Origin: Sphingomonadaceae bacterium
Lineage (GTDB): Bacteria > Pseudomonadota > Alphaproteobacteria > Sphingomonadales > Sphingomonadaceae
Direction: 5' to 3'
Length of the DNA stretch: 64,000 nt
Assembly (NCBI GenBank): GCA_947477745.1
Contig: CANJUF010000003.1
Location: 1 to 64,000, forward strand
Numbering within the stretch: position 1 is the first letter of the stretch; each line of letters begins with the position of its first letter. The position numbers and the translations under genes are program-made. The notes beneath the pieces are model-generated. The model did no database searches, was not told where the DNA came from, and saw only the letters and a program-made list of their open reading frames with translations. Below, piece by piece: positions 24,973 to 59,636 of this stretch.

Positions 24973-25755
24973 TCACGCCAGAGTTACCCCGCCATCCACC
25001 GGCAAGACTACACCGTTGATATAGGCTGCAGCTGGCGAAAGCAGGAACAGCACGGCGTGGGCCATATCCTCGGGATAGCCGAGACGGCCAACCGGGACGC
25101 GGGCGGCGAGATCCTGCATCGCGGGGCTTGCCAGCATGGGTTCTATACGTGGCGTAATGGTGATCCCCGGCGCCACCGCATTGACGCGCGGCATGCCGCC
25201 CAGCCGCGTCGCCATATGGCGGGTGAGGCCTGCAATCGCGGCCTTGGCGGCGGGATAGAAGGCCGAGACGGTCTTGCCGCTGCCTTGCAGGTTGCCGGCA
25301 ATCGAACTGATGTTGACCAGGCTCGCTGCAACGCCAACGCAATGCGACAGCCAGCTTTTGGCAACCGTCTCCATGCTGCCGACGGCTTCGAGCAGGCGAT
25401 CGGCGAATGGACCTTGCGAAACGCTGCGCGGGCCTGCGTTGTTGACGAGATAGTGGCACGGTCCGAGCGATAGCGTCTCGCGCCACGCACGCTCGACTTG
25501 CTGCCTATCGAAAACGTCGACGATGACGGCAATCGCCTTGCCGCCTGCCGCCGCGATCTCGTCGACCGTCGCCACTGCGCCGGGGCCGTCGATATCCCAC
25601 ACCGCGACCGTAAGCCCCGCCTTGGCCGCACCGATCGCCGTCGCCTTGCCGATGCCGCTCGCCGCTCCGGTGACGCAGACCATCTCTCCAGGCGCGAAGC
25701 CCAGCGCGCCCATATCGTAGAGCGGGCCGTGCTTTGGTCCCGTGTAGCCTGTCAT
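24973..25755 (-). CDS. short-chain dehydrogenase/reductase
   Basis: VTGAASGIGKATAI; C-terminal INGVVLPVDGGVTLA. Confidence 0.93.
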   Translation of the reverse strand: MTGYTGPKHGPLYDMGALGFAPGEMVCVTGAASGIGKATAIGAAKAGLTVAVWDIDGPGAVATVDEIAAAGGKAIAVIVDVFDRQQVERAWRETLSLGPCHYLVNNAGPRSVSQGPFADRLLEAVGSMETVAKSWLSHCVGVAASLVNISSIAGNLQGSGKTVSAFYPAAKAAIAGLTRHMATRLGGMPRVNAVAPGITITPRIEPMLASPAMQDLAARVPVGRLGYPEDMAHAVLFLLSPAAAYINGVVLPVDGGVTLA

Positions 25756-25764
25756 GCCCCCGTG

Positions 25765-27528
25765 TCAGCCCGCCGCGATCTTGCGCGTCACCGAATGGGT
25801 TCCGCCAAAGCAGTACTGCGAGCGGCCCGCCGAGGCGCCAACGACGAAATATTCGAAGCAGTCGGCGCTTGGCATCACCGAAACCATGGTTTCAGGAGCG
25901 TCTTCCAGCCACGACAGTTCCGGGTGCGCTACATGGAAGCCGTTGTAATCCTTGTTGAGCATGACATCGCGGAAGGTCATACGGGTGCGGCGATGGACGG
26001 CCTCGGCAATGTCCTTCGGCCCCCAGCCGGCCTTGGCGAAGACGGCGGCGTGATCCGGCGCCAGCAGCATCAGGTTGGAGAAGGTGCCGTGGAAGGGATA
26101 GCCTGCCGAGAGCGGCGCGTTGGTCTTGACCAGCCACACGCCGTGCGAAGGAGCGCCGCAGGTGTTGGCGGTCAGCGTCGCCAGCGTTTCGACCAGCGCT
26201 TCGGGATCGGTGTTCTTGAAATCGAAGAATTCGGTCATCCCATAAGGCACGTTGACGGTGACGGTCGAATCCTCGGGCGCGAAACCCTGCTGCACCCGCC
26301 AGCTTTCCCACGGGGTGAGGTCCTCGTTCTCGGCGACGCAGGCCGAAAACTTCATCGGCGTGCCGATGGTGTCCATGTCCGAGATGCCCGGATAGGAGAG
26401 GCCGACGTTCATCATCACCAGCCGCAGGGTGCGGCCGATGGCGACATTGACCTGGCTGATCGAGCCGGGGCCCAAGGCGCAGATGCCGCGGTTCATGCCG
26501 ATCTCGTCGGCAATCGCGCCCGAAACCAGCACGATCGGTGCCTGCGGCCCGGTAGACATCGCCCAGGTGCGCAGTCCCATCGAGGGATCGAGTATGCACT
26601 CCATCATCGCCATGATCACCGGCATGGCCTCGGGGCGGCATCCGGCCATGACCGCGTTGGCGGCGATCTTGCGCACCGTGCCCACGCCCATGCCGGGAGC
26701 GAACAGGCCGACTACATCGCTGCCGTCGCGACCCGAAGCGGCGATCATCGCCTCGACCTTGTCGTGCGTTGGCGGGATCAGCGGCAGGCCGTCGCTCCAG
26801 CCGGTCTGGACAAAACGGGTCTGCATGGCATCGAAAGCATCGAGCAGGTCGGCCCCCTTGAACACCAGTTCAGGCGCTGCGTCGCGCACGATCTGGTCGA
26901 ACTGGGGCAGCACTTCGAGGATCGGGCGGTCGACCGTCAGCGCCTCGATCGCCTCGTCGAGCGAATCGGCGACCATCTGGCGGATTTCCTGCGCCGTCTT
27001 GTTCGAGAAACAGTGCGGCACGATGAGCGGGACAGCCTCCGGAACACCGAAGGTCTTGGTCGAAAAGCGCGAATCCTCGTCGAAGATCGCGGCGGTATAA
27101 GCGATCGCGGGAATGCCGCGCCGTTCCAGCTCGCACAGGTCGCGCATCAGCCAGGCGGTACAACTGCCGCAATCGGCAGTGGTGCAGATGGCCACATCCG
27201 CCTCGCGCTCGAGCATGTCGAGCTGACCCGGCGAAAGGAAGCGGTTCACGCCGCCCTGTTCGCCGATCACATCGATGAAGCTGAGGCCGATGAAACGCTG
27301 CGAGAGCAGGTCGCGCGCGGCATCGAGCGCATGCGTGCCGTTCTGCTTGCCGTTCCAGTAGAGCGCCACGCGCTTGCCATTGAGGTCGGCGGGGCGCTTC
27401 GCGGGCGGATCGCGCATCGCATCGTCGAGATCGGCCTGCGATTCGGCGACAGGATTGACGATGGTCAGCGTGGCTTGGGTCTGGTTGCCCGGACTCCTGG
27501 CTTCGGCATCGATGCTTGCGGTCGCCAT
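25765..27528 (-). CDS. UGSC-family (Sec/Cys) protein, Cys form
   Basis: VAICTTADCGSCTAWLMRDLCELERRGIPAIAYTAAIF with codons TGC-GGC-AGT-TGT for C-G-S-C; long C-terminal domain. Confidence 0.8.
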   Translation of the reverse strand: MATASIDAEARSPGNQTQATLTIVNPVAESQADLDDAMRDPPAKRPADLNGKRVALYWNGKQNGTHALDAARDLLSQRFIGLSFIDVIGEQGGVNRFLSPGQLDMLEREADVAICTTADCGSCTAWLMRDLCELERRGIPAIAYTAAIFDEDSRFSTKTFGVPEAVPLIVPHCFSNKTAQEIRQMVADSLDEAIEALTVDRPILEVLPQFDQIVRDAAPELVFKGADLLDAFDAMQTRFVQTGWSDGLPLIPPTHDKVEAMIAASGRDGSDVVGLFAPGMGVGTVRKIAANAVMAGCRPEAMPVIMAMMECILDPSMGLRTWAMSTGPQAPIVLVSGAIADEIGMNRGICALGPGSISQVNVAIGRTLRLVMMNVGLSYPGISDMDTIGTPMKFSACVAENEDLTPWESWRVQQGFAPEDSTVTVNVPYGMTEFFDFKNTDPEALVETLATLTANTCGAPSHGVWLVKTNAPLSAGYPFHGTFSNLMLLAPDHAAVFAKAGWGPKDIAEAVHRRTRMTFRDVMLNKDYNGFHVAHPELSWLEDAPETMVSVMPSADCFEYFVVGASAGRSQYCFGGTHSVTRKIAAG

Positions 27529-27553: not shown

Positions 27554-27790
27554 TCAGGCCGGCACAATCTCCAGCGTGACTTCAGGCGCCTTGCGCGCCA
27601 GCCATGCGCGCATCATCGCTTCGAGTTCGGCCTGAGGCAAGGTGCAGACGCCGTCATCGCAGTCTGCCACGTCGCCGGGCCGATAGGCAAGCGTGATCGT
27701 CGCCGCGGTTTCCTCGATCAGTTCGATCGCACCGCCATCGCTCGCGGCGATGCGGGCGAAACTGGCGAGAAGCTGCTGGGCGATCGGCAC
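27554..27790 (-). CDS. small NifU C-terminal-domain-like protein
   Basis: LLASFARIAASDGGAIELIEETAATITLAYRPGDVADCDDGVCTLPQAELEAMMRAWLARKAPEVTLEIV resembles the NifU pattern (SDGGxxELV ... C..C ... APEV) but with C-x4-C. Confidence 0.65.
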   Translation of the reverse strand: MPIAQQLLASFARIAASDGGAIELIEETAATITLAYRPGDVADCDDGVCTLPQAELEAMMRAWLARKAPEVTLEIVPA

Positions 27791-27794
27791 GCCT

Positions 27795-28418
27795 TTAGCC
27801 CGGCCATGCGCTGACGATATCGTCCACCGTCGACAGCGTGGTGATGAACGACAGGGTGTTGCGGATCACGGGCTGGGCATATTCGCTGGGGAAGCCCGAA
27901 ACCGCATCGCGCGGGATGATGACGGTGTAATTGTTGTTCACCGCCTCGATCGACAGGCCAAGGATCGCGACATTGAGCGAGACGCCCGCGACGATCACGG
28001 TGTCGATGCCCTTGTTGCGCAGGCGGCGGTCAAGCTGGTTGTCGGCCATCGGATGCAGTCCGTGGACGCGCACCGATAGCAGATCGCCTTCTTGCCAGAC
28101 TTCGGGGCAGGGGGTGTCGCCATCGGGATTGTGGGATGGACGGTCTGCCGAGGGGCCTGCGCCGCCGGTGTAGAGCCGGCAGTTCGTGCCCGCGCCATAG
28201 CGGGTGGGCGACGTGTCGGCGAGACAATGCACCACCGGCGCGCCATGCGCCCGCGCGGCCTCGGCCAGCTTCGCGCAGTTGGCGATCACGCCCACTTCCG
28301 CCGCGCCCGATGCCAGCGGGCTGCCCGCGGCTAGATCGCCGATGATGCCGCGCTGCACTTCGGACAGCAGCAGGGCGACCTTGCCCTGCTTGAGCAGCGG
28401 TGCGATATCGAATGCCAT
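27795..28418 (-). CDS. isochorismatase/cysteine hydrolase-fold protein, catalytic residues apparently substituted
   Basis: VALLLSEVQRGIIGD and DTVIVAGVSLNVAILGLSIEAVNNNYTVIIPRDAVSG match the isochorismatase fold; expected Asp is Glu and expected Cys is Ala. Confidence 0.8.
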   Translation of the reverse strand: MAFDIAPLLKQGKVALLLSEVQRGIIGDLAAGSPLASGAAEVGVIANCAKLAEAARAHGAPVVHCLADTSPTRYGAGTNCRLYTGGAGPSADRPSHNPDGDTPCPEVWQEGDLLSVRVHGLHPMADNQLDRRLRNKGIDTVIVAGVSLNVAILGLSIEAVNNNYTVIIPRDAVSGFPSEYAQPVIRNTLSFITTLSTVDDIVSAWPG

Positions 28419-28444
28419 TGTCGTTTCTCTCCCGTGAAATCCGT

Positions 28445-29296
28445 TTATTCGAACAGCGCGAAGTAGCGCGTTTCGAGGCTTATGCGCGGCACTGGCTGCG
28501 GCTGCGTTTCGTCGGCAATCGCGACATGCAGGGTTTTGAAATCATCGCCAAGCGCGGAATCGAAACCGATGAATACCAGCAGTTCCTGCGGCGTCATGTC
28601 GGGGAAATACCACCAGTCATGGCGCGGACTGAAACGGGCCCCGCTCGACTGGTAGATCAAGTCGCGCTCGGCCGTCTTCATGTGATATTCGATGGGCACC
28701 ATGTCGCCGGGCTTGACCGTGCGCCCGTCGCACATCGCCAACGGAAAATCCTGCGGCGGCGGGCTCAGCACCTGCCAGCACTGATACATGACATAGCGGC
28801 TGAACGGCGCGGGCAGGGCCCCGTTGAGCTCGAGCGTTTCCTTGAGCTGCACCTCGGATTCGCGCGTATCATAATCGACATGCGGCCAGCCTGCGGGGGT
28901 CATCGCCTTGTCGTTGCGCAGCGCCGGGCTGTAGCGCACCGTAGAGGCGTGAAGCGGCAGCACTTCGCGCGCCTCGCTCAATCGCAGGATCAGCGGGATC
29001 GTCTCGGCCCAATAAGAGCGCAGGGCATCGGACTGGGTGAGCAGGCCCGGCGGCGCCATGAGCTCGTCGAGCCGGTTAACGACGGTCGCGCTGGGATGCG
29101 CGACCAGCTCGAAGCCCTCGCAATGCAGCGAAGGCACCTGACCGGCGGCCCGGCCATTGCGGAAGCGGGTACAGCGCTTGTCGAACACCTCGTCGCCCAG
29201 AATCCGCGCGGTGAACTCGACATGCAGCATGTCGAGATCGCCGCGCAGATAAGGAAGCGTGGCGGTAAGGTCTTGCCGGTTAACCTCTGCGTCCAT
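28445..29296 (-). CDS. CmcJ/NvfI-family (AsaB/GA4-desaturase-like) oxygenase
   Basis: GWPHVDYDTRESEVQL, RFSPRHDWWYFPDMTPQELLVFIGFDS motifs; start at MDAEVNRQDL after AAGGAGGT. Confidence 0.75.
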   Translation of the reverse strand: MDAEVNRQDLTATLPYLRGDLDMLHVEFTARILGDEVFDKRCTRFRNGRAAGQVPSLHCEGFELVAHPSATVVNRLDELMAPPGLLTQSDALRSYWAETIPLILRLSEAREVLPLHASTVRYSPALRNDKAMTPAGWPHVDYDTRESEVQLKETLELNGALPAPFSRYVMYQCWQVLSPPPQDFPLAMCDGRTVKPGDMVPIEYHMKTAERDLIYQSSGARFSPRHDWWYFPDMTPQELLVFIGFDSALGDDFKTLHVAIADETQPQPVPRISLETRYFALFE

Positions 29297-29322: not shown

Positions 29323-31284
29323 TCAGCCGACTACCAGGTCCTTGCCGAACGTCGGTTGCAGCGCCGGGTCGGTGTGCGGCGGCAATTCCGCCGCCGGGTT
29401 GTTCAGCCAGCGCCACATCCGCCGGTAATCGACCGGTCCATTGACCGACGAGCGGTTGCCGTTCTGGTAGTAGCTGTTCGCCCGCTTATCGAGGTAGACC
29501 ATCCCCTTTTCCGATTCGTCGAGGATGTCGGCGAACTTCCAGTAGGCTTGCTCGGTAACCTCGACGCTGTGCTGGCCGTTCTCGATCAGTCCGGCGATGG
29601 CGCGCACGGCGAACTGCGCGGTGATCTCCAGCAGGTCGACCACGGTGAAGCCGCCGAAGTTGTTCGAATTTGGACCGTAGCACATGAACAGGTTGGGGAA
29701 TTGCGGCACCATGGCGCCGAGATAGGCGCGCGGGCCGTCCTTCTCCCAGATCTTCTCGATGCGTTCGCCGCCGCGCCCGCGCACTTCCATCGGCCAGAGA
29801 TATTCGTTCGCCTTGAAGCCCGTAGCGAACAGGATGACGTCGACTTCGTATTCCTTGCCGCCGGCGACGATGCCCTTGGGCGTGATCCGCTCGATGTGAT
29901 CGCTGACCAGTTCCACATCGCCGCGCGCCAGGGCGTCGAGCACGCTCTCGTTGGTGTCGACTCGAATCGGGCGCGAGGCCATTGGCGGGAAGTTGGGGAT
30001 CATCTGCGGGATCAGATCCGGGCGCGAGGCCAACTTGCGCTCGACAAAGGCGACGCAGGCATCGCGCAGCATCTTGTTGATCGGGCTGACGGCATGGGGA
30101 TCGTCGAAGTCCGGATCGACCTTGAGCGCTCCCGAACCACCCGGTGCGACCAGCGCCGCGACGCGGAAACGCACGAAATTGCTGTGGAACGGGAAGTTGC
30201 GATCGAGCCAGAGCGACTGCTCGGGCAGCGGCTTGAGATAGGTAAGATCCTCGTAGAGCCAGTTCGCCTGCCGCTGGAACATGAAGGTCTGCGCCGCCAG
30301 CCTGCCGATTACGGGCGCGGTCTGGTAACCAGAGGCGCCAGAGCCGACGATGGCGACGCGCTTGCCCGTAAGGTCGTATCCTTCGGGCCACTCGGCGCTG
30401 TGGCAGGCAAGGCCCTCGAAGCTGTCGAGGCCCTCGATCTGGGGCATCTGCGGGCGCGAGAGGAAGCCGACGCACGAGATAACTGCGTTGAACTGCGCCG
30501 TCTCCGCGCCGTTCGGCCCCTGGGTTCCCAGGGTCCAGAGCTTGGCGGCGTCGTCCCAGGTCATCTGCAGGACTTCGGTGTTGAACTGGATGTTGTCCCG
30601 AATCTCGAAATTGTCGGCGATCCAGTTGAAATATTTCTGGTTTTCGTCGCGGGGGCAATAGCCCCAAGGGAACGGATAGTCATATCCGAACAGGTGGGTG
30701 TAGCCTCGGCTCGGGGTATCTACGCGTGCGCCGGGATAGCGGTTCTCGTACCACGATCCGCCGACACTGGGGTTCTTTTCGAACACCACGAAGGCAATCC
30801 CCGCGCGCTTGAGCTGAACCGCAGCGTTGAGGCCGGAGATGCCGGTGCCGATGACTGCGACCTTGAAGTCCCGCGCCGCTTCGGGAGCCTTTCCAGCCTT
30901 CCAGTTCACGCCGCGAGCCCATGGATCGAGCGCGGTTTCTTCCTGCCAGATCGGGAAATCCTCCTCGGGAATATCCCGGCCTGCGGTCAGCGAAAGTGCG
31001 GTGCGCATGCGCTCCTTCGGACCCAGATCGAGTTCGCCAGCGCCGCTGTCGCGATACTTCTTTAGGAAGTCGGCGGCCATCTGCCGGATGCGCTTTTCGT
31101 GCTCCGGGTCAGCCAGTTCGCTGCCGACGGTGAATTTGCCCGCGGAACCGGGGACCATTTCCTTGATGCTCTCGTCGCCAGTCAGTTGATAGAGCAGCCC
31201 GCGAAGCACCATCGGCGAGGCATGCTGCATCGCGTCTTCGATGGTTTCGTCACTGGCGGAAAGAAGCTCGGTTCTTGTGGTCAT
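29323..31284 (-). CDS. Baeyer-Villiger monooxygenase with N-terminal extension (4-hydroxyacetophenone monooxygenase-like)
   Basis: GTGISGLNAAVQLKRAG, FEGLACHSAEWPEG (FxGxxxHxxxWP), GSGASGYQTAPVI. Confidence 0.92.
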   Translation of the reverse strand: MTTRTELLSASDETIEDAMQHASPMVLRGLLYQLTGDESIKEMVPGSAGKFTVGSELADPEHEKRIRQMAADFLKKYRDSGAGELDLGPKERMRTALSLTAGRDIPEEDFPIWQEETALDPWARGVNWKAGKAPEAARDFKVAVIGTGISGLNAAVQLKRAGIAFVVFEKNPSVGGSWYENRYPGARVDTPSRGYTHLFGYDYPFPWGYCPRDENQKYFNWIADNFEIRDNIQFNTEVLQMTWDDAAKLWTLGTQGPNGAETAQFNAVISCVGFLSRPQMPQIEGLDSFEGLACHSAEWPEGYDLTGKRVAIVGSGASGYQTAPVIGRLAAQTFMFQRQANWLYEDLTYLKPLPEQSLWLDRNFPFHSNFVRFRVAALVAPGGSGALKVDPDFDDPHAVSPINKMLRDACVAFVERKLASRPDLIPQMIPNFPPMASRPIRVDTNESVLDALARGDVELVSDHIERITPKGIVAGGKEYEVDVILFATGFKANEYLWPMEVRGRGGERIEKIWEKDGPRAYLGAMVPQFPNLFMCYGPNSNNFGGFTVVDLLEITAQFAVRAIAGLIENGQHSVEVTEQAYWKFADILDESEKGMVYLDKRANSYYQNGNRSSVNGPVDYRRMWRWLNNPAAELPPHTDPALQPTFGKDLVVG

Positions 31285-31386: not shown

Positions 31387-32772
31387 CTACTCCTTCTTGA
31401 GCGGCCGCAGCGGTGTCGAGAGCGACTGCTGGAGCCACGTGCCCTCGTCGGCAAGGATTGCCGCCTGCCGCTTCACCTGCCGGTGCAGCAGCCGCAGCAG
31501 GGCTTCGTCATGCTCCGGGCCGGCTTCGGCGATGAACGCGACCAGCATTTCGCTCGCCTCGCCTTCCGAGTCCGGCCGCCGCCCGATGAGATCGGCGGTT
31601 TCACGGACATATTCGCTCGCGAAGGTCTCGCGCACGCCCTCCGCGCGGCGCAGATAGCGCAGCGCCAGCCGGATCTTGTCCTTGCGGTACGCGGCGAACT
31701 CATCGTCCGTTCCGAGCGATTGCACCATCGTGTCGAGCGCTTCGAGCGAGTTGCAATAGCGCGTGCTGACCGGCGCAGGCAGCGCGTATGGCTCCAGCGC
31801 AATGCCCATCGATTCAGCGATGCCCTCAAGCGCGTCCTTCAAGGAGATCGCGTGCCAGATCAGGTATTCGTGATAGTCTTCCTGATCCTTCGGCCTGGCC
31901 AGGTCATCGGCGATCTGGAGCGGCGTGAACAGCGAGAAGGCGATGTGCTGGAAGCGAACATGGTCGATATTGATCGGCCGGCTGCCGCGCGCCTCGCAGA
32001 GTTTGTAGAACCCCTCGGGATCGTCGAACCCTTCGACGCGCTCGCGCGAGCGCAGCGCAGAAAAGTCGGTATGCCGGTCGCCCACGCTGACCAGCTCGAA
32101 ATCGAGCATCGCGGTCAGCTCGTTCCCCTCGAAGATGAACTGCCCCGCATCCATGGCGATTACGCAAGGCGGATCGAGCGACTCTGGCACATTGCGGTCG
32201 AGCCACTTGCGCACGAACTCGATGTCAGGAGAGGGCAGCCGCTCGCCGGTGAGGTAAACCCCTTCGGCGTCGCGGTAGGCGGAAAGCGTGGTTTCCTTCG
32301 GACCGGCCGGCATGGCAGCGCCTGCGGCAATGATCAGCGCGGGATCGAGCTCGTGGATCTTGCGCATCTGGTCGGCAAGCTGTTCGCGCAGCTGCGTGCG
32401 GTCTGCTTCGCTGGCGGCGGTCGACAAGTTGGGACGGCCCGGCACGAGGTCCATGACCATCGCGGGAACCTCTTCGATGAAGCCATAGAGATGCGGCACC
32501 TTGATGCCGTTCTCCTCGAACACCTTGTGCACGCGCGCTTCGTAGGCCAGCGGCCGCGCCGGCCAACGCCCGCCGCGCGCGCCGCGCACATAAAGGCTCA
32601 CCCGTCCCTTCGCGCTTTGCGCATCGACGAACCAGGCAGGGCGCCAGCGTCCTTCGCGGCGCAGCGACTGAACCGGCCCGATCTCGCGCTCGATCCATGC
32701 GCGCACAATGCCGTCGTCGGCCTGATCGACCAGACCTCGGGGCATCGACATTTCGACTTGGGGTTCGCTCAT
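31387..32772 (-). CDS. APH/choline kinase-fold phosphotransferase family protein
   Basis: YGFIEEVPAMVMDLVPGRPNL, CVIAMDAGQFIFEGNELTAMLDFELVSVGD. Confidence 0.82.
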   Translation of the reverse strand: MSEPQVEMSMPRGLVDQADDGIVRAWIEREIGPVQSLRREGRWRPAWFVDAQSAKGRVSLYVRGARGGRWPARPLAYEARVHKVFEENGIKVPHLYGFIEEVPAMVMDLVPGRPNLSTAASEADRTQLREQLADQMRKIHELDPALIIAAGAAMPAGPKETTLSAYRDAEGVYLTGERLPSPDIEFVRKWLDRNVPESLDPPCVIAMDAGQFIFEGNELTAMLDFELVSVGDRHTDFSALRSRERVEGFDDPEGFYKLCEARGSRPINIDHVRFQHIAFSLFTPLQIADDLARPKDQEDYHEYLIWHAISLKDALEGIAESMGIALEPYALPAPVSTRYCNSLEALDTMVQSLGTDDEFAAYRKDKIRLALRYLRRAEGVRETFASEYVRETADLIGRRPDSEGEASEMLVAFIAEAGPEHDEALLRLLHRQVKRQAAILADEGTWLQQSLSTPLRPLKKE

Positions 32773-32794
32773 CTGTGCGCCTTCCGCATGCCGA

Positions 32795-34147
32795 TCAGAT
32801 CGGGATCAGCAGTTCGGTGAGCCCCTTGATGTAGTAGGAGCCGGGCACCGCGATGAGGTATCCCTGACGGCAGCAACGGGCGTGAAGCACGCGTAGCAGG
32901 TCTTCGTCCCGCTCGCTGTCCGATGCCATGACCAAATCCTCAAGTAGCAGGTCTGCTTCGCCGGTTGACCCGACCGGCTTGCCCAGAAGCCGTTCGGCGT
33001 CCGCCAGATAGGCATGGTCGAACGCTTCGCCATACTTGCTCAGCATGTCGAGATGATCGGCGATGCTGCGCTCAACGCGGCGGTGATAAGCGCCGATTTC
33101 GTCAGCCGCCGGATCGGCGTCTAGCGCGGCCTTGAGCGCGAAGATTGCCTCGCTGGAGTTAGTGGCCGCTGGCTCGGGCATATCGGGCATCGTCAGCGCC
33201 AGCCCCATGCATTCGCCGATCGCCTCAAGTGCCTGCTTGAGCTCCCAGATCACCCAGCTCTGGTATTCGACATAGTCGGCATTGGGCGAAGGCGCGGCAA
33301 GGAAGCGCTCCATGCAGATCGCCGAGGCCAGCGCGCCCGAAAGCGAGAAGGCGGCGGTGTGGAACCTTACCTTCTCCAAATCGACCTTGCGCCCCGAAGT
33401 TTGCTCGTAAAGCTTGTAGAAATCAGGCAGATGGCCGAGGTCTTCCCACTGGCCCCTGATCCGCATCGCGGCGAGGTCCATCATCGGATCGCTCAGCGCA
33501 GACAGTTCGAAATCCATCATCGCGGTGAGCCGGTCGTCTTCGTACAGGAATTGCCCAGCGTCGCAGGCGATAACGCGGGCAGGCTCGCTGGCGGGCGGCG
33601 CGTTGCGCATCACCCATTGCGCGGCAAACTCCAGCCCCGGATCGCTTCGTGTGCGCTGCTGCGCGTAGTTATCGTAGAAATCCTGGAACAGCGACAGGGT
33701 TACGGCGCGCGGCTCTTGCGGCAGGGACAGCCCGGCCTCGGCGAAGGGCTGCGGATCGAGCGCGTGCATTGCAGTCATCTGCTCGGCGAGTTGTCGCAGC
33801 ACGGACTGGCGGTGCGCTTCGTTCTGGCTGGTGCCAAGGTTGGGCGCACCGCTGACCTTGGCCATGACAGTGCCGGGCAATTCGTCGATGAAGCCGTAGA
33901 CCTGGGCCACGCGCACACCGCCCTTTTCGAGCAGCTCGTGGATCGCGTGCTCGCGGCGCAAGCCGTAAGGAAGGAAGCTCTCGGTGCGTTCGCCGCGAAC
34001 ATAGCATTGCAGCGCCTCGCCGCCGCGCTCGGCATCGACGAACCAGGCCGGGCGCCAGCGCCCTTGCCGTTCGATCCGGGTTACGCGGGCACCGAGGTTC
34101 TTTTCGAACCAGCGGGCGATCGCGGCTTCGCTCTCCTCGTCGGTCAA
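32795..34147 (-). CDS. APH/choline kinase-fold phosphotransferase family protein, paralogue of neighbour
   Basis: YGFIDELPGTVMAKVSGAPNL, RVIACDAGQFLYEDDRLTAMMDFELSALSD; likely TTG start at 34147 after GGGAGAGG. Confidence 0.8.
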   Translation of the reverse strand: MTDEESEAAIARWFEKNLGARVTRIERQGRWRPAWFVDAERGGEALQCYVRGERTESFLPYGLRREHAIHELLEKGGVRVAQVYGFIDELPGTVMAKVSGAPNLGTSQNEAHRQSVLRQLAEQMTAMHALDPQPFAEAGLSLPQEPRAVTLSLFQDFYDNYAQQRTRSDPGLEFAAQWVMRNAPPASEPARVIACDAGQFLYEDDRLTAMMDFELSALSDPMMDLAAMRIRGQWEDLGHLPDFYKLYEQTSGRKVDLEKVRFHTAAFSLSGALASAICMERFLAAPSPNADYVEYQSWVIWELKQALEAIGECMGLALTMPDMPEPAATNSSEAIFALKAALDADPAADEIGAYHRRVERSIADHLDMLSKYGEAFDHAYLADAERLLGKPVGSTGEADLLLEDLVMASDSERDEDLLRVLHARCCRQGYLIAVPGSYYIKGLTELLIPI

Positions 34148-34166
34148 CCAGCCTCTCCCGGCTTGC

Positions 34167-35417
34167 TCAGGCGCGCTTCGGCCCTTTGGGTACTTCGCGG
34201 AACGGCACGCCCTTGTCACCCGAAGCCTCGCGCGGCATGCCGAGGATACGCTCGGCCACGACATTGCGCGAAATTTCGGTGGTGCCGCCGCCGATGCAGG
34301 AAATCTGGCGCATCAGGAAGTTCATGCCGACCGCATCGGTCGCGGCTTCCTCCTCCTCGTCCCAGACGCTGGCATTGGACCCTGCGAGTTCGAAGGCAAT
34401 GGTCGAGCGGCGCACGCTGGCGACGCCGCGGAACAGACGGTCGATTGCCGACATGTCCTTGTTGGCCTTGGTCGCCGCATCGGCAATGCGGCCCTGCAAA
34501 GCGCGGGTGACGACGCCGAGTTCGCGGTGTTCGCCAATCAGTTCGCGCGCCGACGGATCGTCGATCTTGCCCGATTTGCGGGCAATGGCGACGGGCGAAT
34601 CCTCGTGACCGGCGCTTTGGCTCAACCCTGAAGGGTAGGTGACGTAGGGCGAGTTGTGCCCCATGCGCTCGTGGAACATCCAGCGGGTGCCAATCGTCCA
34701 GCCGCCGTCGACGTCGCCAACTCGGTCGCTGTCGGGAATGCGAACGTCAGTGAAGAATTCCTGACAAGCCTCTGATTCGCCGTTCAAACGCACGATGCGC
34801 TGGATCTCGACGCCTTCGGCGCGCAGCGGAACGAGGAACACGGTCATGCCCTGGTGCTTGGGCACATCCCAGTTGGTGCGCGCCAGGATGATCCCCCAGT
34901 CGGCCCACCATGCGCGCGAGGTCCACACCTTCGAACCGTTGAGGATCCAGTGATCGCCTTCGCGCACCGCCGCAGTAGTGATGCCAGCAACGTCGGAGCC
35001 GCCGCCGGGCTCGGAAAGAAGCTGCACCCAGACTTCGTCGCCCTTGAGGATCGCGGGCAAATGCGCGGCCTTCTGCTCGGCGGTGCAAAATTCGAGGATC
35101 GTCGAGGCACAGGGATTGAAGGTCGGGACGGCAAAGCGCGAAGGGTATTCGTGTCCCGCAAGTTCCTCGTTGAACGCGCGGTTATGCTCGGGAGACAGGC
35201 CAAGCCCGCCATATTCCTTCGGCATGCAGATCCCGGCAAATCCGCCGTCGAAGATCTTGCGCTGCAAGGCGCGGTCGCGGGCGACGGCGACAAGCTCCTC
35301 CTCGTCGTCCTTGCAATGCTGGGTGCGGTCCCATGGCTGGAGCGGACCGAGATTGGCCTTGATCCATTCGCGTGCCCGAAGCCGGAACTCTTCCACCGGT
35401 TCCATACCCGTGCTCAT
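34167..35417 (-). CDS. acyl-CoA dehydrogenase
   Basis: FAVPTFNPCASTILEFCTAEQKAAHLPAILKGDEVWVQLLSEPGGGSDVAGI; QISCIGGGTTEISRNVVAERILGMPRE. Confidence 0.95.
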   Translation of the reverse strand: MSTGMEPVEEFRLRAREWIKANLGPLQPWDRTQHCKDDEEELVAVARDRALQRKIFDGGFAGICMPKEYGGLGLSPEHNRAFNEELAGHEYPSRFAVPTFNPCASTILEFCTAEQKAAHLPAILKGDEVWVQLLSEPGGGSDVAGITTAAVREGDHWILNGSKVWTSRAWWADWGIILARTNWDVPKHQGMTVFLVPLRAEGVEIQRIVRLNGESEACQEFFTDVRIPDSDRVGDVDGGWTIGTRWMFHERMGHNSPYVTYPSGLSQSAGHEDSPVAIARKSGKIDDPSARELIGEHRELGVVTRALQGRIADAATKANKDMSAIDRLFRGVASVRRSTIAFELAGSNASVWDEEEEAATDAVGMNFLMRQISCIGGGTTEISRNVVAERILGMPREASGDKGVPFREVPKGPKRA

Positions 35418-36550
35418 GCCGCCATCTCCTTGTCGATCTGCATTTGTGCGAGCCACCGGCGATGGTCGCCCGGGGTGCCATAAAGGAGGCGGTTGAGCGT
35501 GACCCGCCTCAGGAAGAAGTGGAGATCATGCTCGTAAGTCACGCCAATACCGCCATGAATTTGCACACAGTCCTGCGCCAGTTCGACCCCGTGCTCGCCA
35601 ATATAGGCCTTGGCGGAGCTGACCGTTTCGGCAGCGCGCGAGGTGCCGTCGGCAAGCGCGTCGGCGGCGGAATCGCACACTGCGTGGCTCGCTTCGAGCC
35701 ATGACTTCATGTCGGCGAAGCGGTGCTTGAGCGCCTGGTAGGAGGCAAGTGCGCGCCCGAAAGTGAAGCGTTCGAATGCCCAGTCGGTGGTCATCGCGAA
35801 GGCCGATTCCATCGCGCCGACCGATTCGGCGCAAAGCATGACACAGGCGTTGCGCACCTGCTCGGTCATCTGCGCCTCGGCTTGACCGAATGCGCCGACC
35901 AGGGCTGATGCCGGGACCCGCACCGCATCGAAAGTCACCGCGCCGAACTTGCGCGAGACATCTATCGCCTTCAGGTTCTTGATGGAGACGCCGGACGTTG
36001 AGGCGGGAACCAGCACCTGCGTGGTACCGCTGTCGCTGCGCCCGGAAACGAGGAAGTACGTGGCCTGCCCAGCCGATTCGACCGGCTTCACAGCGCCCTG
36101 AATGACGAGTTCCTCGCCGTCGCGGGTGATGGTCACGGTGGCCTCGCCGGACTGCTGCCACGGCGCAAAGCCCAGACAAACCGAGGCAATCGCGCTGCTC
36201 GTCATGATCGCTTCGAGCGCATCGGCATGGGCCTCTCCGCCCACATCGGAAAGCGCGCTTGCAACGACATTGCAATCGACCAGCGGGCCGGGTGCTGAGT
36301 GCCGGCCGAATTCATAGGCGATCAGCGAGAGATCGACGATCCCGCGCCCGCTGACGCTGCCGCCGCCCATGTCTTCGCTGACCAAGGGCATGATCCAGCC
36401 GAGCTCCGCGCCGCCGGTCCAGTATGCCGGTTCAAAACCCGCCGCGCTGTCGCGGTTCTTGCGCTGGCGATCCAGCGGAACATGATCGGCGAGGTACCGC
36501 GCGGTGGTGTCGCGCAGCAACTGCTGGTCCGAGGTCAGCTCATGCCACAT
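35414..36550 (-). CDS. acyl-CoA dehydrogenase
   Basis: ACAD fold; FGRALASYQALKHRFADM, CVQIHGGIGVTYEHDLHFFLRRV; ATGA overlap with downstream ACAD. Confidence 0.93.
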   Translation of the reverse strand: MWHELTSDQQLLRDTTARYLADHVPLDRQRKNRDSAAGFEPAYWTGGAELGWIMPLVSEDMGGGSVSGRGIVDLSLIAYEFGRHSAPGPLVDCNVVASALSDVGGEAHADALEAIMTSSAIASVCLGFAPWQQSGEATVTITRDGEELVIQGAVKPVESAGQATYFLVSGRSDSGTTQVLVPASTSGVSIKNLKAIDVSRKFGAVTFDAVRVPASALVGAFGQAEAQMTEQVRNACVMLCAESVGAMESAFAMTTDWAFERFTFGRALASYQALKHRFADMKSWLEASHAVCDSAADALADGTSRAAETVSSAKAYIGEHGVELAQDCVQIHGGIGVTYEHDLHFFLRRVTLNRLLYGTPGDHRRWLAQMQIDKEMAA

Positions 36551-56588: not shown

Positions 56589-57016
56589 GCCGCGCCTGCC
56601 TTTCCGGCGAGCCGGAATACCGGCAGGCTCTTGCCGCTGGCGGTCTTCTCGAAATCGACGACCACGGGCGCGTCATTCACAAGCTCTTCCAGAGTGGCAT
56701 CGACGATGTTGGTGATCAGGCGAATGCCGCCTTCTTCAAGATCGACGAGCGCCACGATCGGCGGCTCGTCGAAGCCGATCGGCGGCGGGTAGGACACGCG
56801 CATGAAGCTGTAGATCGTGCCGCGCCCCGACATCGGTGTTGGCACCCGTTCAGCCGAGTGACACTCAGGGCAGATCGGACGAGGCGGATGGTGCATCGCG
56901 CCGCAATTGCCGCATTTCTGGATCGAGAGCCGCCCTTCGGCGGCCTCGTCCCAGAACCAGTCGGTGTTGCGGGTCGACATCGGGTCGAGCCGCTTCGATT
57001 GACGTTGCTGGTTCAT
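56585..57016 (-). CDS. Zn-ribbon OB-fold (DUF35) protein
   Basis: SIQKCGNCGAMHHPPRPICPECHSAE; ATGA overlaps with both neighbours. Confidence 0.93.
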   Translation of the reverse strand: MNQQRQSKRLDPMSTRNTDWFWDEAAEGRLSIQKCGNCGAMHHPPRPICPECHSAERVPTPMSGRGTIYSFMRVSYPPPIGFDEPPIVALVDLEEGGIRLITNIVDATLEELVNDAPVVVDFEKTASGKSLPVFRLAGKAGAA

Positions 57017-59577
57017 TTGCCGGTTACCGGAGTTTGCGAGGCAGGCGCGGTGGCGCTTTCGGCGACGCTCTTTTCCTCGGCCTGCTTGTATCCCATGAAC
57101 TTGCGCGGTCCCATGATGAGCGGCTCGCCGGGATTCCAGACGGCGGCGATATTCTCCTCGTGCAACTCGTCGATCTTCTGGTCCGAATAGCCCAGTTCGC
57201 GAAGCACCTCGCGGGTGCATTCGCCAACCACCAGCGGCGGCCGCTGGATAGTGGCGGGTGTGTCCGAAAAATCGAAGGCGAGACCCATCTGCTCGAACTT
57301 GCCGACCAGTTCGTGCTGGTAGCCGACAGTCCACTGGCGGCGGCGGAAGTCGGCATTTTCGTGGATGTGACGTCCGAATTCGGGATTGCTGATCTCGGCC
57401 GGGACGCCCGCTCCGTCTAGCGCGGCGAACCATTCGGAGGCCGGCTTTGCGAGGAATTTCTCCTGCAACTTGGCTCGAAGCGCCTTGTCATTGGCGAGGC
57501 GCGATTTCGCATCGGCGAACCTCGCCTCGTCAAGCGCTGCAATCTGCACCACGCCCTTGAGCGCCTGCCAGTGCGCATCGTTGGCGACGACCAGCGCCAA
57601 CCAGCCGTCCGCCGTCTCGTAGAGGCTGTCCATGGCCGCCATGCCGCGCTGGTCGCCGTCGAGCCGGGGCCGGTCGAAGCCTGAGCCGTCGGGCCGGGCC
57701 AGAACGTGCGAGACATTGAGCAACTGCGCATAGACGATCGCAGTGGACACGAACTGGCCCTCGCCGGTCCGCGCCTTGTGATAGAGCGCCTGCATGATCG
57801 CCACAGCCGAGAGGAAGCCGTTGCCGGTATCGCCGAACGAGGTGAGCGACCACAGCGGCTTGCCGCCATCGGCCATGCCGCCATCCTCATACTGCACGCC
57901 TGCAAGGCACGCGCCGGTCTGGTCGTTACCCGGAAGCTTTTCGCGCGGGCCGCGTTCATGGCCGCGGGTGTGGCAGTAGATCAAGTCTGGCTTGATCGCC
58001 TTGAGGCTGTCGTAATCGACGCCGAGCCGCACTGCTGCATCATAGCGCATATTGTGCTGGACCACGTCGGCGGTCTTCACCAGGTCGCGCAGCACTTCCA
58101 TCGCGCGCGGGTCCTTCAGGTTGAGCGCGACCGAGCGTTTGCCCCGGTTCGAGGTGTAGGCGATGTGGTTCTTGTGCCAGTAGGTGTCATAGAAGGCGTT
58201 GACCTTGATGACGTCGGCGCCAAGATCGGCGAGCACCTGGCAGCCGAACGGCCCGGCGATGGCGAGGCCAAGATCGAGCACGCGAATGCCCGCCAGTGGT
58301 GCCTTGAGCGAGCCGGTCCCGCCGGTGGGCGCAGGGCGCGCCTTAAGCGCGTGCGCCTCGGCCTTGACCTCAGCGGTGTGCTGTCCGGCGGCGGGGGCAG
58401 GCCCGCCAGCCTCGCCTTGCGTCTTTTCCATTTCAAGCACGCGGCCGACCTGCCGGATCGGGCCGTATTCGGGATCGACGATCTCGCGCACGCAGCCATC
58501 GGCCAGCATGATCTGATCGGCGAGCGCGGCTTCGGGCGAGCGCGCTTCCTGCATCGGAACGTCGGCGGCGGCGGCGGCCGAAAGCCAGTCGTCGCAGCCG
58601 AACTTCGCCATGCGTTCGGTCAGGATCGGCTGGTAATGGCCGATCACCCAAGCCTCATCGACACCGGAGCCGAAGCGGTTGGGATCGTTCATCACCGATA
58701 GATCGGGATTGTGCTCGATCACATCGCCTTCCGAGGCTTCGATAATGAAACGCGGATTAGGCACCCAGGCGTGGATCCAGCGCCCGTCCTTGCATTCGAA
58801 GTGGCCCTTGGGGGTGCGCGAGCAATTGATCCAGGTGTTGAAGTCTTCCGCGTTCGGGTTTTCGGCGCGCTGCCAGGCCATCAGGGCAGCGGCACACGCC
58901 CCCTGGAACAGGCTGGTTTCGACATGCTGGCCGCGCCCGGTGGACTCGCGCGCGACGAGCGCAGCCTCGATTCCGCAGGTCAGCGCATAGAACGCGCCCA
59001 TTGACGGGGCGGGCATGGCAGTAGTCATCGGGCCTTCGCGCGGCGGACCTTGCAGCCAGTTCCACGGCGCTTCGAAGCCTTCGAGCGGATCGTCACCGCC
59101 CGACATGTGGATGTTGCCGGTTTCGGGCCAGCCGCGATGCTCCCAGTTGAGGCCGGAGCGCGCCGCGACGAGGAGATCGTAGCCGGGGCGCTGGGCATCC
59201 TTGGTGTCGCTGCCCCAAGCGGTGACGCTCGCGTAGACAAGGCGCGGGTTGAGCTTGCTGAGCGCTGCGAAATCGATGCCAAGCCGCTCGGTGGTGCCCG
59301 GCGAGAAGCTCTCGATGAGAATGTCGGCATGAGTCGCGAGCGTCAGGAAAGTGTCAAGATCGTCCGCGTCCTTGAGATCAAGGACCGCGCTGCGCTTGCC
59401 GCGCTGCCAGGTGCGATAGCCCAGCCGGGTGCGGTCATTGTCGCGGAACGGATCGCCGCCCGGCGGTTCGATCTTGACGACATCGGCGCCATTGTCGGCG
59501 AGCATCATCCCTGCCATCGGCCCGGATATGCCCCATGAAAGGTCGAGCACCTTCAAGCCTTGCAGTGCGCCTGCCAT
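57013..59577 (-). CDS. tandem-fused CaiB/BaiF family CoA-transferase
   Basis: Two family III CoA-transferase modules: LKVLDLSWGISGPMAGMMLADNGADVVKIEPP and IRVLDLGLAIAGPFGCQVLADLGADVIKVNA. Confidence 0.93.
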   Translation of the reverse strand: MAGALQGLKVLDLSWGISGPMAGMMLADNGADVVKIEPPGGDPFRDNDRTRLGYRTWQRGKRSAVLDLKDADDLDTFLTLATHADILIESFSPGTTERLGIDFAALSKLNPRLVYASVTAWGSDTKDAQRPGYDLLVAARSGLNWEHRGWPETGNIHMSGGDDPLEGFEAPWNWLQGPPREGPMTTAMPAPSMGAFYALTCGIEAALVARESTGRGQHVETSLFQGACAAALMAWQRAENPNAEDFNTWINCSRTPKGHFECKDGRWIHAWVPNPRFIIEASEGDVIEHNPDLSVMNDPNRFGSGVDEAWVIGHYQPILTERMAKFGCDDWLSAAAAADVPMQEARSPEAALADQIMLADGCVREIVDPEYGPIRQVGRVLEMEKTQGEAGGPAPAAGQHTAEVKAEAHALKARPAPTGGTGSLKAPLAGIRVLDLGLAIAGPFGCQVLADLGADVIKVNAFYDTYWHKNHIAYTSNRGKRSVALNLKDPRAMEVLRDLVKTADVVQHNMRYDAAVRLGVDYDSLKAIKPDLIYCHTRGHERGPREKLPGNDQTGACLAGVQYEDGGMADGGKPLWSLTSFGDTGNGFLSAVAIMQALYHKARTGEGQFVSTAIVYAQLLNVSHVLARPDGSGFDRPRLDGDQRGMAAMDSLYETADGWLALVVANDAHWQALKGVVQIAALDEARFADAKSRLANDKALRAKLQEKFLAKPASEWFAALDGAGVPAEISNPEFGRHIHENADFRRRQWTVGYQHELVGKFEQMGLAFDFSDTPATIQRPPLVVGECTREVLRELGYSDQKIDELHEENIAAVWNPGEPLIMGPRKFMGYKQAEEKSVAESATAPASQTPVTGK

Positions 59578-59636
59578 CGTCCCTCTCCTCGATCTGCTTG
59601 GCCGGATCACGTACGCTCACGTCCGACTCGATTAGG

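Follow-up and report, generated by a model that had tools for sequence, protein, structure and literature searches.

The window analysed here, a 64,000-nucleotide stretch of DNA from a member of the Sphingomonadaceae, carries on its minus strand a compact cassette in which genes of several families are separated by few nucleotides. The initial annotation had put it forward as a candidate for an undescribed system. This raises the question of whether the cassette as a whole is a conserved unit, or which part of it is, and what that unit may do.

Organization of the cassette and its surroundings

The packing of five minus-strand genes suggested by the initial annotation was borne out by the list of open reading frames in the window. 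In the direction of transcription, the genes encode a CmcJ/NvfI-type non-heme iron oxygenase (28445–29296, 283 amino acids; NF041278, 169.5 bits against a cut-off of 80), an isochorismatase-fold protein (27795–28418, 207 amino acids; PF00857, 77 bits against a cut-off of 27), a small NifU-like protein of the Nfu fold (27554–27790, 78 amino acids, GTG start), a two-domain protein of the UGSC family (25765–27528, 587 amino acids; PF24696, E=6.7e-32), and an SDR oxidoreductase (24973–25755, 260 amino acids; PF13561, E=2.9e-38), which is the last gene of the run. The intergenic gaps in the sequence are 26, 4, 25, and 9 nt, and the third-position GC content of the five genes is high (0.76–0.83).

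The same-strand run continues upstream to about position 36550, so that the cassette forms the 3' end of a longer stretch resembling an operon. The upstream part contains an FMO/Baeyer-Villiger-type flavin monooxygenase (29323–31284, minus strand; PF00743, E=3.6e-23) and, further upstream, two APH-fold and two acyl-CoA-dehydrogenase-type genes (31387–36550, minus strand). The latter four were identified from the open reading frames, from synteny with two related loci described below (L021 and L022), where the monooxygenase is also present, and, for the APH-fold genes, from Pfam, while the acyl-CoA-dehydrogenase names are a reading of the sequence rather than the result of a profile search. The two adjacent APH-fold (aminoglycoside-kinase-like) genes, at 31387–34264, are located within the catabolic operon, and a role in resistance is probably not what they serve. 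Genes for a Rieske oxygenase, an enoyl-CoA hydratase, an acyl-CoA ligase, an SBF-like transporter, and an HpcH/HpaI aldolase are located nearby, and the region is, judged by its sequence, a catabolic cluster with a coenzyme-A context. Elsewhere in the window, at 57013–59610, an 865-amino-acid protein contains two family III CoA-transferase domains.

The conserved core of the cassette

A scan of genome contigs with the UGSC protein recovered 20 loci that encode proteins with 67–90% sequence identity. The hosts are Novosphingobium, other sphingomonads, other Alphaproteobacteria, and Actinomycetota (Nonomuraea, Streptosporangium, Sphaerimonospora, Rhizocola, and Actinophytocola), and the proteins form a monophyletic clade in the tree (local support 0.87). 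The NifU-like gene is located directly upstream of the UGSC gene at 17 of the 20 loci, in both Alphaproteobacteria and Actinomycetota. At an 18th locus, L037, it is placed downstream of the UGSC gene and on the other strand. No NifU-like gene was found near the UGSC gene at L035, which belongs to the same genome as L037, or at L039, whose UGSC gene was recovered in part only. An overlap of 4 nt between the two genes was read from their starts and stops at 8 of the 17 loci; for L029, L032, L033, and L040, the starts were those chosen for the alignment. A regulator of the GntR/FCD-type family is present at half of the 20 loci, mostly adjoining the pair.

The accessory genes have a much narrower distribution. 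Genes for the isochorismatase-like and CmcJ-like proteins adjoin the UGSC gene at L021 and L022 only, which are also the only loci with the SDR gene in the same place. Both are close, fully syntenic Novosphingobium metagenome-assembled genomes that share the whole operon of the window. By the criterion that the initial annotation had set, recurrence of the four families together in other genomes, the cassette of four genes fails as a conserved system: the four are found together nowhere else among the 20 loci. The idea of a tightly packed, undescribed system holds in a narrower form: the conserved core consists of the adjacent UGSC and NifU-like genes, an old recurring unit in two bacterial phyla, to which the isochorismatase-like and CmcJ-like genes are lineage-specific accessories.

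Specificity of the NifU-like protein for the UGSC clade

A profile of the NifU-like protein gave 19 matches in the 18 source genomes, all at the UGSC loci except for a weak second match in one genome (G265), and none in another (G277). In a set of 201 sphingomonad genomes, members of the close UGSC clade were identified in two, and the same two genomes had the strong NifU-like matches, with a borderline extra match in G069 (E=9e-4). The six genomes of this set that encode only distant UGSC proteins had none. Similarly, UGSC-type proteins were identified in 27 of 151 genomes from the Nonomuraea family, the close clade in two of these, and the NifU-like protein in those two only; among the candidates scored, it was not found in the 25 genomes with only distant UGSC proteins. 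Since the two positive genomes were already known from the UGSC scan, the independent information lies in the absence from the other 149. The NifU-like protein thus occurs almost only together with the close UGSC clade.

Structure and motifs of the NifU-like protein

Seven residues (F11, G19, L24, C44, C49, L56, and L64) are invariant in the alignment of the 19 NifU-like proteins. In all 19, a CX4C motif, C44-x4-C49, replaces CXXC, and in the profile alignment with the Nfu domains of sphingomonads, C44 falls on the second cysteine of CXXC. The match of the window protein to PF01106 is below the cut-off (12.4 bits against 27; E=0.18), and the profile matches nine of the 19 members at E<=10, the best with E=2.2e-5. 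The AlphaFold model (pLDDT 85.5) predicts the order alpha-beta-beta-alpha-beta, and the top PDB matches in Foldseek are CnfU (2z51) and an Nfu-type protein (1xhj), with further NifU/Nfu domains (1veh, 2m5o, and 2jnv) below them. The TM-scores by query are 0.57–0.66 and the probabilities 0.95–1.00, but the best E-value is only 3.3e-3, and KH-type folds are also found among the matches, mostly at lower probability. A sequence search of the PDB with the UGSC and NifU-like profiles gave no meaningful match. The predicted Nfu fold and the replacement of CXXC by CX4C together suggest that the small protein is Nfu-like by fold but, by its motif, not a canonical cluster-binding Nfu.

The UGSC two-domain protein and its distant homologs

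The window protein scores 111.4 bits against PF24696 (cut-off 25), and all 20 members of the close clade match this family. The score against the equivalog NF041046 is 88, below the cut-off of 125. The UGSC domain covers residues 23–198 approximately and contains the active-site-like motif C120-G-S-C123, here in the cysteine form, which is invariant in the 20 close relatives. The C-terminal domain (approximately residues 220–587) has no Pfam match, and its features are a DGLPxxPPT motif and the residues R366, E400, H493, C297, and C397. The AlphaFold model (pLDDT 75.5, moderate confidence) suggests a flavodoxin-like alpha/beta fold for the UGSC domain, with the cysteine at a helix start. Consistently, flavodoxin-like and other alpha/beta matches fit the N-terminal domain in a Foldseek search with the full model, in which no convincing fold match was found for the C-terminal domain. 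A thioredoxin-like fold has been proposed for the family (PMC2398784), and with this the model, at its moderate confidence, disagrees.

We also analysed 41 more distant loci, which include fused proteins as well as domains split into adjacent genes. Among the 40 that were informative at position 120, 26 contain a cysteine, 12 an in-frame TGA, and two a methionine; position 123 is a cysteine in 38 of 40. The in-frame TGA probably encodes selenocysteine, and in two sphingomonad homologs it takes precisely the place of the U in UGSC or USTC. In the C-terminal domain, D246, G337, R366, and E400 are each conserved at 41 of 41 distant loci, followed by H493 (24/26), C297 (36/41), and C397 (35/41).

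A TrxR-family flavoprotein is encoded at eight of the 41 distant loci (534 kb), often adjacent to the UGSC gene, and at none of the 20 loci of the close clade or in the window (453 kb). At a distant locus in Arthrobacter, the gene order is trxB-trxA-hypothetical-UGSC. Other recurrent neighbors of the distant homologs encode CoA transferases, CoA-ester lyases, and TRAP or tripartite tricarboxylate transporters.

Several individual loci deserve mention. In a genome of the same genus, a TGA-containing UGSC gene with the UGSC motif follows a TrxR-like flavoprotein gene after 11 nt (L044:9039-11665), and in a genome of the same family, a TGA-containing gene for a UGSC/C-terminal-domain protein is followed by a selD-like gene, an assignment read from the sequence, and then by a TrxR-like gene (L045:8894-12927). 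The genome of the window itself encodes a second, split pair of UGSC and C-terminal domains with 28–34% identity, which adjoins CoA-transferase-like, thiolase-like, and amidohydrolase-like genes (L041:10263-16041). On a Haladaptatus plasmid, the C-terminal domain is encoded as a separate gene beside a CoA transferase and a CoA ester lyase (L123:5977-6984), with no UGSC match nearby.

The accessory proteins

The initial annotation regarded two members of the cassette as non-classical or degenerate versions of enzyme families. For the isochorismatase-like protein, the absence of the triad is confirmed by the alignments: Glu20, Val118 (beside the conserved Arg117), and an alanine occupy the positions of the catalytic Asp, Lys, and Cys. 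However, the wider subfamily has E-x-Q, Arg, and Ser at the positions of the hydrolase Asp, Lys, and Cys. Since the substitutions are common to the whole subfamily, some members of which are annotated as cysteine hydrolases, the window protein has not degenerated locally. Further isochorismatase-fold paralogs without the cysteine are encoded in the same genome (L141:5304-5885 and L139:5733-6326).

In the CmcJ-like protein, the metal ligands H139, D141, and H257 align with residues 135, 137, and 250 of NvfI (E=1.3e-10). The NvfI triad is printed as His135-His137-Asp250 (PMC8292354), but by count the chain sequence gives His, Asp, and His at these positions, and we used the order in the chain. 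The CmcJ-like protein retains the ligands of NvfI and is probably an active oxygenase. A second CmcJ/NvfI-type gene, 33–36% identical, is present in the genome of the window (L042:429-1154).

A putative redox function of the UGSC and NifU-like pair

The pair probably forms an undescribed redox enzyme. The reading that we favor, with a probability of about 0.5, is that the two genes encode a thiol/selenol redox module, in which the UGSC protein is the enzyme and the NifU-like protein a dedicated partner that replaces a thioredoxin reductase/thioredoxin donor. The UGSC domain would provide a reactive Cys120, a putative selenocysteine in many relatives, and a resolving Cys123 for a thiol/selenol redox step, while the C-terminal domain would bind a carboxylate or an acyl(-CoA) catabolic intermediate via R366, E400, and H493. 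The Nfu-fold protein would carry out dithiol-disulfide exchange with its CX4C cysteines and would most likely take the slot of the thioredoxin reductase/thioredoxin donor in other UGSC systems, so that electrons may flow from it to the UGSC protein, possibly within a physical complex. In the lineage of the window, the module may have been recruited into a catabolic operon, in which the flavin monooxygenase, the CmcJ-type oxygenase, the isochorismatase-fold protein, and the SDR would prepare or process the substrate. Some observations count against this reading: the TrxR neighbors are found at a minority of the distant loci, the enzyme at L035 has no partner nearby, although another copy in that genome (L037) does, and the C-terminal domain has no recognizable fold match in a model of moderate confidence.

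Alternatively, the UGSC protein could be a metalloprotein and not a thiol redox enzyme. In this case, the NifU-like protein would be dedicated to its maturation or metallation, as an iron-sulfur (or persulfide) carrier or scaffold. The predicted Nfu fold, the invariant cysteine pair near the classical cluster site, and two additional conserved cysteines of the UGSC C-terminal domain (C297 and C397) are consistent with such a role. Yet the cluster motif itself has been replaced by CX4C in every NifU-like member, distant UGSC proteins share the cysteines of the UGSC protein but lack the partner, and some have TrxR instead, and a selenocysteine at position 120 suits thiol/selenol chemistry better than cluster ligation. 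We therefore regard this alternative as possible but somewhat unlikely. It is rather improbable that the pair is a non-redox catabolic enzyme, such as an isomerase, lyase, or hydrolase with a nucleophilic cysteine, for which the NifU-fold protein would serve as a structural subunit; the catabolic CoA context, the adjoining LysR or GntR regulators, and the modelled flavodoxin-like domain with its cysteine at a helix start agree with such an enzyme, whereas the recurrent TGA at position 120 with a cysteine at 123, as well as the TrxR/Trx neighbors, point to redox turnover. That all four genes encode one complex or catalyze a single step is highly improbable, as 18 of 20 UGSC relatives lack the adjoining isochorismatase-like and CmcJ genes, isochorismatase-like relatives elsewhere lie without UGSC, and the tight packing retained in L021 and L022 is weak evidence because these two loci have the remaining operon genes in common with the window as well.

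Comparison with known systems

The isochorismatase-like protein matches its superfamily (PF00857) but differs from the cysteine hydrolases in that the catalytic Asp, Lys, and Cys are all substituted, while the CmcJ-like protein shares with the CmcJ/NvfI oxygenases (NF041278) the family score and the H-x-D...H metal triad and differs in its location in a catabolic operon. The small protein has in common with the C-terminal domain of Nfu/NifU (PF01106) the alpha-beta-beta-alpha-beta fold of the model, the DGG motif region, and a pair of cysteines placed after strand 2 and before helix 2, but it contains CX4C rather than CXXC, stands alone with its 78 amino acids, and is tied to UGSC. An Nfu fold with CX4C would widen the known uses of this fold.

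In its putative mode of working, the pair resembles glycine and D-proline reductase (GrdA, GrdB, and PrdB with thioredoxin reductase and thioredoxin; PMC3091704), which combine a selenol/thiol enzyme, a TrxR chain, and a small Cys/Sec partner; for UGSC proteins, a TrxR/Trx supply is suggested by the gene neighborhood at 8 of the 41 distant loci. By this analogy, the pair could represent a new class of reductase in aerobic catabolic operons, with an Nfu-fold protein that has lost its cluster role and, dedicated to UGSC, carries electrons (or substrate) by means of a dithiol, although we consider this unlikely. The likeness is one of putative working. The UGSC pair differs in that it is placed in a catabolic operon with oxygenases, has an Nfu-fold partner, and has no GRDB match: PF07355 matched none of the 20 UGSC members at E<=10, and it was also absent from 61 relatives, 14 UGSC genomes, and the control genomes.

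UGSC proteins, which rank with the most frequent selenoprotein families of aquatic metagenomes, and their UGSC/Unknown_1 fusion were described computationally in 2008 with no function assigned (PMC2398784), and a 2026 review still lists UGSC among the selenoproteins with largely uncharacterized functions (PMC13188914). No description of a NifU-fold partner of UGSC was found in the literature searched, with subscription journals mostly outside it. The Cys-only, two-gene version in culturable bacteria (for example, Nonomuraea, Streptosporangium, and Sphingomonas formosensis) offers a tractable route to the function of this family. The fusion architecture of the window protein agrees with the text description of UGSC/Unknown_1 (PMC2398784). 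With the known family (PMC2398784; PF24696 and NF041046), the window clade shares the UGSC domain, the Cys or Sec motif, and the fusion to another conserved domain, but it differs in its cysteine form, its score below the NF041046 cut-off, and its dedicated NifU-fold partner.
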